Positions 29,074 through 31,964 of a DNA stretch of 64,000 nucleotides are shown piece after piece (the first letter of the stretch is position 1; every line of letters begins with the position of its first letter). Position numbers and translations under genes: made by a program. Under the pieces are notes generated by a model that did no database searches, was not told where the DNA came from, and was given only the letters and a program-made list of their open reading frames with translations. This DNA is from Candidatus Methylomirabilis sp. (GTDB lineage Bacteria > Methylomirabilota > Methylomirabilia > Methylomirabilales > Methylomirabilaceae), in NCBI RefSeq assembly GCF_028716865.1, contig NZ_JAQUOY010000002.1, forward strand, positions 62,001 through 126,000, written 5' to 3'.

Positions 29074-29160
29074 GCCGGGGTGGCGGAACTGGGAGACGCT
29101 CGGGACTTAAAATCCTGCGGGCTTCGGCCTATGCGGGTTCGACTCCCGCCCCCGGCACCA
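29074..29160 (+). tRNA. tRNA-Leu (anticodon TAA)
   Basis: An 87-base cloverleaf: acceptor GCCGGGG pairs with CCCCGGC, anticodon stem CGGGA/TCCTG with loop CTTAAAA (anticodon TAA at 29108-29110), a long variable arm (GCGGGCTTCGGCCTATGC region), T-arm GCGGGTTCGACTCCCGC, and an encoded CCA end. The long variable arm fits leucine class II tRNA. Confidence 0.97.
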
Positions 29161-29244: not shown

Positions 29245-29994
29245 TTACCTCCGTTTTCCTCCGGTCGAGGGTTTTATGATCAGAGACATGGATAATAGCC
29301 CGAAGAGACCCAGCAGGGCTGGAGTGAAAAGAATCAGAAACCCTGGCCCCATTCGCCATTTTCCTGTGATTGGGTCGTATTCAAAGCAGCGGAAAATAGT
29401 TTCTTTTCCGGGAAGGGGATAGGAGGGAATAAATTCTCCCTGCATTTCTCTCAGCACCTCTGCAAGCCTTGCAGTCTTCTGAAAACCTACAAGAATTCTC
29501 AGGACATATCCATTCCGATCAATACCGGCAACCATCGCCGGATGATCAAATCCTCCGATTTCTTTGCGCCATTCAAAGTGAAATCCCATACTGTCGGCAA
29601 GGGCTGCTATATCTTTCGTCACGCCAAACATCCAGTTGTCTGGTCGGGGTACATCCAGGATCTTCCCCAATCTCACCATATCCTCTACAGTATCCCGAGG
29701 ATCAAGGTTGAGGACCAGAACGCGATATCCATCTATCTGAATTTTTTGCAGTTCCTTCTGCAGATATTGGAGATACGGGTAGCAAATGGTCGGACATCTG
29801 GTGTAGACGAAAGTGAGAAGCACAGGGTTTCTCGTGTAAATCTCAGAAAGATGGATCTCCTCATGAGCGGTCTTTATCAGGGCATTCGGCATCTTGCGAA
29901 AGACATATCGATTCTCTTCGGGCAGTTCCGGTTGCGCAAAGGCGGAAGCCGCTAAAAGAGGTATGAGAATCAGCGAGAAAAGGCTCTGGCGCAT
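29245..29994 (-). CDS. Sco1/SenC-family copper chaperone
   Basis: About 249 residues: a signal peptide (LFSLILIPLLAASAFA), a thioredoxin-like Sco domain with the copper motif C-P-T-I-C (YTRCPTICYPYLQ) and the distal His (FDHPAM), and an unusual C-terminal membrane helix (GFLILFTPALLGLFGLLSMSLII). Sco proteins deliver copper to the CuA site of subunit II; the linked subunit II has a complete CuA motif. I chose ATG 29994, which overlaps the end of the subunit I gene by 25 bases and gives a clean signal peptide. Confidence 0.9.
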   Translation of the reverse strand: MRQSLFSLILIPLLAASAFAQPELPEENRYVFRKMPNALIKTAHEEIHLSEIYTRNPVLLTFVYTRCPTICYPYLQYLQKELQKIQIDGYRVLVLNLDPRDTVEDMVRLGKILDVPRPDNWMFGVTKDIAALADSMGFHFEWRKEIGGFDHPAMVAGIDRNGYVLRILVGFQKTARLAEVLREMQGEFIPSYPLPGKETIFRCFEYDPITGKWRMGPGFLILFTPALLGLFGLLSMSLIIKPSTGGKRR

Positions 29995-31394
29995 CGCTTT
30001 GACGCTCCGAAGAAAAAGAAGGCTATCCCCAGTAAATACAGTACAGCGAAGCCCGCGGCAGCTTTCGCCAGTGTTGTGCCCATGGACAGATCGGGCGGAT
30101 AGAGATTGAATCTTCTGGGGATGGAGAACGTTCCCGAAAGATAAAACATGCTCACAAATCCCCAACCTCCCAATAAGAGCAACGCAAAGATGCTCCTCGA
30201 TAATCCGACAGAGAAGGGTGTACCGGACACCTTCTCAGCGAACCAGACGACAAAGGCGAGATTGAAGAAGATCTGACCCAGCAGGTTATAGGTATGAAAG
30301 TGGGCGGGAACCCACTGGGTATTGTGAAGAACAAAATTGTTGACGATCGTCGCATCTAATACGGCTGCCACCCCCCCTATCGCCCAACCGAGTACGCCAT
30401 AAAAGTAGAGGAGAGAGGCCAGATTCCATTTCATCGAGTTCCGGTAGGTGTAGGCGAGTACGCTGAAGATCGTGATCACAGCCGCAGGGATAGGCGCAAG
30501 GAACGAGGCGATCTGACCGATGAATTGAAATCCGGTCGGCTGGACAAAATCCATATACAAATGGTGAAAGTAGGCGAACATCACGATAAGAAAGGTTGCA
30601 TTCCAGGATAATGCCACATACCATGTGGTCTTCCATTTCGCGCGATGGCCGAATTCCGGATAGAGCTCGTATAGCACCGCTACCGCCAAATACAGCATTT
30701 CATTCACCAGCGTATGTCCAAATATAAACGTCAAATTCTTCATCAGGAGTGCATCGTTTTTGAACCACCCCAGATACTCACCAAAGTACAGGCTCAGCAG
30801 GGTCACCCCGGCAAGCAGGCAAATAAAAATACCGATCAGCGTCGCGGTGAGAACGACAATGAACGGTGGGACCTCCGGTTCTTTTCTCCCGCGGAGGTAA
30901 TGCCAGGCCAGAGCCTGGGGCAATGAATATTTCCGCAAGATGCCGATCAGCATGGAAATGGTCCAGACCAGCCACCCAACCCCCAGTACCCCGATGCTGA
31001 CGAGAAAGAGCGGCGTTGCCCAGCTCTCCCATGTCTTGTAAAAGGGAAGGGGATAGAGGAAATACCATCCGGCAGCAAATTTCCCGATGAAGGTCGCAAT
31101 GATCAGCAAGACCACCCCTATCAGTGTCAGGATATAGGCGATGATGTTTCCGACCAACGGTGAAGCCGAGTGTTTGTTCAGTAGGTAGTTGTTGCTTGCC
31201 ATGCCAAAAACGAACCAGAGACCCGCCATACCCAGGCCATGGAGGGTGAGAAATGAGAAAAAACGGTCCGCCGGTACGGTAATCACCCCTCCCTGATTGG
31301 CACGCATGAAGATTCCGAGGAGGATCAGAATGGGAAATAAAGTGAGACCGGTATAGATCCACAAGGCGGTCATGCGAGAATTTGCTTGCTCCAT
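29970..31394 (-). CDS. Heme-copper oxidase superfamily subunit I, probably NO-reductase type
   Basis: A 474-residue polytopic protein with about 12 helices. Heme and CuB ligands are all present: H52 (low-spin heme), H227 (FGHTLVNE), H277-H278 (FAYFHHLY), H365 and H367 (PAHFHTYN). In oxygen reductases of families A and B the CuB His is followed four residues later by the cross-linked Tyr; here that position is N231. Loss of this Tyr is typical of NO reductases of the superfamily (such as the sNOR-type described as relatives of B-family oxidases). The operon is subunit II, subunit I, Sco. Oxygen reduction with another proton/electron donor cannot be excluded. Confidence 0.8.
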   Translation of the reverse strand: MEQANSRMTALWIYTGLTLFPILILLGIFMRANQGGVITVPADRFFSFLTLHGLGMAGLWFVFGMASNNYLLNKHSASPLVGNIIAYILTLIGVVLLIIATFIGKFAAGWYFLYPLPFYKTWESWATPLFLVSIGVLGVGWLVWTISMLIGILRKYSLPQALAWHYLRGRKEPEVPPFIVVLTATLIGIFICLLAGVTLLSLYFGEYLGWFKNDALLMKNLTFIFGHTLVNEMLYLAVAVLYELYPEFGHRAKWKTTWYVALSWNATFLIVMFAYFHHLYMDFVQPTGFQFIGQIASFLAPIPAAVITIFSVLAYTYRNSMKWNLASLLYFYGVLGWAIGGVAAVLDATIVNNFVLHNTQWVPAHFHTYNLLGQIFFNLAFVVWFAEKVSGTPFSVGLSRSIFALLLLGGWGFVSMFYLSGTFSIPRRFNLYPPDLSMGTTLAKAAAGFAVLYLLGIAFFFFGASKRCARAFSR

Positions 31395-31406
31395 TTCGTC
31401 TTCTCC

Positions 31407-31964
31407 TTATCGTACCTCAAAACTCGTGCGCATAATAAAATGGGCGATACCGCAGTATTCCAGGCAAAGGACATTGTATGTACCAGGCTTTTCAAACCGG
31501 ATACGCAAGCGGTTGACGTAACCCGGCATCGCCTGAACCTGAGCGATGATGGTATGTTCCGGGTCGTAAATGCCAAAGCCATGATTCACATCCCGGCTGG
31601 TGACTCGGAACTCTACCAAGGCCCCTGCAGGTAGAACGGTGCCGCCTGAAGCTTCGGCGGAGGTCTTTTCCCTGTCGAGCGATTCATCCGAAAGGGTAAA
31701 CGCGAACTGCTGTGCCGTCACAACGATGATTTTTTCCGGCCGTTCCTGGACAAAAAGCAGATAGGGAGAGCGTGGAAGGGTGAAAAAGAACACCACACCA
31801 AGAATAATACCAAGCATGAGAAACCAGAGACCCCGATAGCGATTGACCCGCGCAGGTGCAATGTCGTTCGTTTTTTTTGTGCTGAAAAACACCATCTGAA
31901 AGACCAGCACAAGTGCACCGCTCACAATCAGAAAGCTGATCAAAACAAGGACCTGCTGCGTCAT
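31407..31964 (-). CDS. CuA-containing oxidase/reductase subunit II
   Basis: 185 residues with two N-terminal membrane helices (about 5-27 and 46-63) and a cupredoxin domain. CuA ligands are complete: H128 (VNHGF) and C167-x-E-x-C171-x3-H175-x2-M178 (CLEYCGIAHFIM). It therefore can accept electrons from a soluble donor such as cytochrome c. It is the first gene of the operon; subunit I follows after 12 bases. Confidence 0.9.
   Translation of the reverse strand: MTQQVLVLISFLIVSGALVLVFQMVFFSTKKTNDIAPARVNRYRGLWFLMLGIILGVVFFFTLPRSPYLLFVQERPEKIIVVTAQQFAFTLSDESLDREKTSAEASGGTVLPAGALVEFRVTSRDVNHGFGIYDPEHTIIAQVQAMPGYVNRLRIRFEKPGTYNVLCLEYCGIAHFIMRTSFEVR

Follow-up and report, generated by a model that had tools for sequence, protein, structure and literature searches.

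Candidatus Methylomirabilis comprises NO-dismutating methanotrophs. For two of its species, M. oxyfera and M. lanthanidiphila, the NO reductases qNOR, gNOR and sNOR were given in 2018, the sNOR loci being Damo_0801-0802 and mela_2378-2377, which are 87% and 82% identical (PMC6094997). N2O measurements on M. oxyfera gave only small amounts (PMC6094997), a point against the NO reductase reading of sNOR. A report of 2022 gives sNOR in the genus, with norSY both present and transcribed in the Candidatus M. tolerans MAG (PMC8906906). Judged by likeness, the closest characterized case is the CuA NO reductase purified from B. azotoformans, which combines a Tyr-to-Asn change with a CuA-bearing subunit II and a linked SenC gene (PMC3475470).

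In the current study, a three-gene cassette was analysed within a 64,000-nucleotide stretch (the window) of a further Candidatus Methylomirabilis genome (2.54 Mb in 53 contigs, 99.98% complete), which was compared with the 14 other genomes of its GTDB genus. As sNOR of the same genus is already in print, the cassette is a further copy of a described enzyme; it is not new, and the window adds one more genome. What the window contributes is a record of residue and cassette conservation over 82 loci (the best 80 of 240 relatives plus two), and a hint that the genus has sNOR of two separate lineages.

Layout and annotation of the cassette

Three minus-strand genes fill positions 29245-31964: subunit II, then subunit I, then Sco. 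The features are as follows.

31407..31964, minus strand: NorS-like subunit II, with a CuA domain and two N-terminal hydrophobic segments; 185 aa, Pfam COX2 8.8e-09
29970..31394, minus strand: NorY-like haem-copper subunit I, with Asn231 where the cross-linked Tyr would be; ATG start, 474 aa, Pfam COX1 2.9e-44
29245..29994, minus strand: Sco/SenC copper chaperone; 249 aa, Pfam SCO1-SenC 2.2e-07
29074..29160, plus strand: tRNA-Leu beside the 3' end of the cassette; context, and a possible insertion landmark

Both gene linkages that define sNOR loci are present: the gene for the CuA subunit II lies directly upstream of that for subunit I, and a senC/Sco gene is linked to the latter, with an overlap of about 25 bases. 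The hydrophobic segments of subunit II span residues 4-22 and 45-63, and the protein matches the NCBIfam model CoxB at 5.3e-22, which is below the CoxB cut-off. Its CuA ligand set is complete (H128, C167, E169, C171, H175 and M178), so that the full CuA site of the original prediction stands. The Sco chaperone that had been placed in the same operon was likewise recovered by its Pfam match and carries the copper motif, a CxxxC (C67/C71) plus H151. Its start is likely to be the ATG at 29994, the mechanical ORF start (TTG at 30165) being less fitting. Hydrophobic segments occur at the N terminus (5-23) and the C terminus (222-240), in a prediction numbering that counts one extra residue; the first is probably a signal peptide and the second is a predicted membrane anchor.

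The expectation that such an enzyme would be missed by norB searches was borne out. Pfam returns the generic COX1 family for subunit I, and NCBIfam only oxidase models far below their cut-offs. Relatives in the plasmid collection are annotated 'cbb3-type cytochrome c oxidase subunit I', and KEGG labels sNOR coxA (PMC11388526). The cassette would represent a putative N2O source fed by cytochrome c, which goes under the name of cytochrome oxidase in standard annotation, a point already in print.

Active site and placement of subunit I

All six haem and CuB histidines of subunit I are present (His52, 227, 277, 278, 365 and 367). Asn231 lies four residues past the first CuB His, where oxygen reductases have the cross-linked Tyr. 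The gene coordinates, the six His and Asn231 are as originally described, and these residues are invariant in a 58-sequence alignment. Relatives were collected by scanning contigs of named genomes with an alignment of 11 sequences from the genus; 337 stretches matched, 240 of these encode a relative, and the best 80 were kept. With two sequences of the plasmid collection added, those of Ruegeria pomeroyi and Thermomicrobium roseum, Asn occupies the Tyr position in 82/82 subunit I sequences (best 80 of 240 plus two), a count that leaves out the Parasedimentitalea locus (L104), which has no readable subunit I. The two patterns used in the scan span YFHHLYM and the FLYP region, and the Asn position is outside both. 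An assembly error or one-off change at Asn231 is ruled out by the same 82/82 (best 80 of 240 plus two).

In the reference alignment, Asn is found in all 36 rows of the sNOR clade (a chosen subset of the 82 together with the genus sequences), as against Tyr in 16/16 B-type and 3/3 A-type rows. The replacement of this Tyr argues against O2 splitting. A Tyr at HH-6, which we take to be the place of the C-family Tyr, is also ruled out, the 36 clade rows having V in 29, I in six and F in one. Among the other tyrosines, Tyr275 (32/36 clade rows) and Tyr280 (35/36) are not universal; Tyr235, Tyr242 and Tyr369 are. Tyr235, one helix turn below Asn231, is Leu or Met in the A and B rows. Y242 and T308 occupy columns of the B-type K-path and are kept in subunit I; their counterparts in ba3 are presumably Y248 and T312.

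These residues were compared with those of the described families. In the published residue table (Table A4), the active-site residue is N for sNOR and likewise for the Bacillus CuA NO reductase; in the same table, eNOR has Gln at the Tyr position, and cNOR and qNOR have Glu with a c-haem or quinol subunit, where the window cassette has Asn with CuA (PMC8756737). The gNOR group is marked by Asp at this position and by its own clade; subunit I has Asn, and the gNOR-like rows (L140-L142) form a separate clade. Neither the Tyr at H+4 of B-family O2 reductases nor the HPEVY/HPAVY motif of the A family was found in subunit I, which falls outside both clades.

In a maximum-likelihood tree of 58 rows, the 36 sNOR rows form a single clade (99/98). 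Outside it lie 15 B-type rows (100/100) and three of A type, as well as a single cbb3 subunit and the qNOR and NO dismutases (NOD) of the window genome. A 64-row tree, to which three gNOR-like and three A rows were added, keeps the clade (SH-aLRT 99), as does removal of the long rows L102 and L103 (99). In the 64-row tree gNOR is a weak sister of the sNOR clade (85); in the 58-row tree the joining of A, B and sNOR is weakly supported (81/46). An earlier tree with few B rows, in which B grouped with A at 82, was superseded by the 58-row tree. B-type labels denote similarity to Thermus thermophilus ba3, and the trees were built without labelled bNOR, eNOR, nNOR or Nitrosomonas NorY. The clade includes proteins called sNOR in print, namely the M. 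oxyfera orthologue and that of Ruegeria pomeroyi; Silicibacter, the genus named in the published residue table, is presumably the older name of the latter. The qNOR of the window genome (L096) is distant from the window subunit I in both trees. Placement in the B family, which would have spoken against an NO reductase, is not what was seen, since subunit I lies outside the sampled B clade and has Val, Ile or Phe at HH-6 among its clade rows. The phylogeny separates sNOR from the sampled A, B, C and qNOR/NOD sequences (99/98) and from gNOR (SH-aLRT 99).

Structural comparison places subunit I in the superfamily. An AlphaFold model has 12 main helices (pTM 0.90) and is weak around the metal site, with pLDDT <50 at 350-364. 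The family profile matches solved O2 reductases, A types first, with no NO reductase among the 60 chains listed. Fold searches likewise resolve the superfamily only, and the matches listed are mostly A-type oxidases. The 50 VIA rows end with the Roseobacter NOR (Z 31.9) and cbb3 (31.8 and 31.7); ba3 is absent from these 50 rows and present in the Foldseek list.

Conservation, genomic site and lineages

Profile searches found subunit II in 79/82 loci (best 80 of 240 plus two), with the CuA motif in 78, and Sco in 79/82. The CuA-subunit I-Sco arrangement is the norm of the family. The C-terminal membrane anchor of Sco, regarded as unusual in the original prediction, proved to be nothing of the kind: a hydrophobic segment close to the C terminus is present in 76 of the 79 neighbouring Sco ORFs, an approximate count from stop-to-stop ORFs and a hydropathy rule, and such an anchor is therefore the rule for sNOR-linked Sco.

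The flanks were surveyed at 83 loci, L104 being added to the 82. Genes for Rrf2-family regulators occur at 12 of them (L102, L104, L017-L022, L024, L056, L067 and L080) and genes of the formate/nitrite-transporter family (FNT) at 14, both being raw counts; these neighbours give hints of NO or nitrite biology. A 'cytc' query that matched 80/83 loci was discounted, as it drew in the subunit II proteins themselves. At L057 and L083 a CxxCH motif precedes the CuA domain, and subunit II ORFs of 330-380 aa occur there and at other loci; the motif suggests that a cytochrome c may be fused to some sNOR subunits II. A separate observation concerns JAHFTY010000003.1 (L016), assigned to Acidobacteria bacterium nzgw67, which encodes a subunit I 81% identical to that of the window, a CuA subunit II and a Sco ORF. 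This is either a recent transfer or a mis-binned contig.

The window subunit I is 92% identical to its orthologue in genome G005 and 87% identical to that in G013. These two orthologues, which are 86% identical to each other in subunit I (478 columns) and 81% in subunit II, appear on their sequence identities to match the published M. oxyfera and M. lanthanidiphila sNOR. The same gene is found, again at 92% identity, in NSJM01000048.1 (Candidatus Methylomirabilis sp. Ru_enrich_MO2).

Among stretches of its size in the window, the cassette has the lowest GC content (0.503 vs 0.601 overall; 1/613 windows as low or lower), and 84 bases separate its end from the tRNA-Leu. None of nine flanking genes looked for was found around the cassettes of G005, G013, G007 and G014 (12-20 kb each). 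Further ORFs occupy a gap of about 1.0-1.7 kb between the subunit I and Sco genes of G005 and G007, as opposed to the overlapping genes of the window, and no Sco was found in 12 kb around the G013 cassette. The differing flanks and subunit I-Sco spacing suggest independent placement or movement of the cassette. The gap in G007 holds an ORF for a small membrane-anchored protein and, on impression, a cupin-like ORF, the first of these also occurring in G005 (L151:9209-10501, L149:6162-6821).

Five of the 15 genus genomes carry sNOR of the window type (lineage 1, 87-100% identity). A second lineage, with a subunit I about 39% identical, is present in six (loci L007-L012, in G001, G003, G004, G008, G010 and G012) and has HTLAN and CuA. 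Both lineages share HTL[V/A]N and CuA. They were found together in 0/15 genomes; four of the 15 have neither, two of these being 80-81% complete. No Sco was matched in the lineage 2 stretches examined. Lineage 2 was not found set apart in a non-exhaustive search of the literature on the genus.

Proposed function and comparison with known systems

The window genome also has pmoA and encodes a cytochrome d1 protein that resembles NirS, two proteins that resemble NO dismutases and carry an SHN motif, a qNOR and an A-type oxidase with HPEVY (L095); the NOD, NirS and qNOR labels rest on motifs, family matches and the genus literature. With the Sec-type model TIGR04246, NosZ was found in 0/15 genus genomes; control genomes also fell below the cut-off, and Tat-type NosZ is outside the scope of this model. 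A gNOR-like subunit I with the motif WGLDLIAD is present in the sister genomes G013, G007 and G005 (L140-L142), and the seven PF00115 matches in the window genome include no such protein. Two weak COX1 matches in this genome (L100 and L101, contigs C1 and C11) look, we assume, like NnrS-type haem-copper membrane proteins.

We consider it very likely that the window cassette is norSY-senC, encoding the sNOR of a Candidatus Methylomirabilis species, an enzyme that would convert NO to N2O. The putative sNOR identity put forward originally agrees with all sequence tests run and with the published annotation of the orthologues. This reading builds on the ligands and the Asn, on membership of the clade and on conservation of the cassette, and takes electron donor, substrate, product and role from knowledge of the family; NO reductase activity is inferred by analogy. 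Reduced cytochrome c, the presumed donor, would deliver electrons to CuA of subunit II, from which they would pass to the low-spin haem of subunit I and on to the haem-CuB site, where two NO would be converted to N2O. Sco would load copper into CuA. Protons may be supplied by the remnant of the B-type path (Y242/T308) and the sNOR-specific Tyr235, as their column conservation suggests. With NirS making NO, sNOR could work alongside the NO dismutases to relieve the cell of NO. An N2O side branch in an NO-dismutating organism bears on the cleanness of nitrite-dependent methane oxidation, as is already in print.

An alternative is that the cassette encodes a cytochrome-c-fed, high-affinity O2 reductase, which would respire part of the O2 formed by NO dismutation. 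In Nitrosomonas europaea, norSY and senC are up 2.7- to 10.8-fold when O2 is limiting, and a function as an oxidase was suggested in that study (PMC6967387). The fold and profile matches listed are mostly O2 reductases, and the B-type K-path columns Y242 and T308 are retained. Set against this, the cross-linked Tyr is Asn in 82/82 sequences (best 80 of 240 plus two) and the C-family place is without a Tyr; the window genome already has an A-type oxidase; and the CuA NO reductase purified from B. azotoformans also has Asn for this Tyr (PMC3475470). An O2 reductase therefore seems unlikely here. It is quite improbable that the enzyme is a true dual NO/O2 reductase, with Tyr235 partly standing in for the missing cross-linked Tyr. 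If it were, sNOR would be a switchable safety valve for NO and O2 alike, in cells whose O2 is made from NO, and the genus would have taken up two distinct lineages of it, never both per genome.

Asn and CuA alone cannot tell sNOR from bNOR (PMC8756737), which counts against the sNOR reading, and a bNOR (CuANOR) would share its chemistry and differ in family; bNOR also has the linked SenC (PMC8756737, PMC3475470). That the window encodes bNOR is nevertheless scarcely credible: the qCuANOR cluster has 13 subunit I helices, one in subunit II and an extra 46-aa peptide (PMC3475470), compared with 12 main helices in the AlphaFold model and two hydrophobic segments in subunit II here; reports of bNOR are limited to Bacillota; and the orthologues are called sNOR in print (PMC6094997).

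As an sNOR, the window cassette is most like that of M. oxyfera and M. lanthanidiphila, from the same genus and with the same Asn and CuA, and differs from it in genomic site. The Nitrosomonas norSY-senC locus, a proposed sNOR, has the same two subunits and senC, as compared by description (PMC6967387). Of the Bacillus enzymes, type I (qCuANOR) shares the Tyr-to-Asn change, CuA and SenC and differs in its helix numbers and extra peptide, whereas type II, again compared by description, resembles the window in having 12 helices and two in subunit II (PMC3475470). T. thermophilus ba3 and other B-family O2 reductases share the six His and the Y242/T308 columns, but have Tyr for Asn and form a separate clade. 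The NO dismutases and qNOR of the same genome have the superfamily and presumed substrate in common with the window enzyme, but are single-chain, quinol-type proteins of a distant clade.
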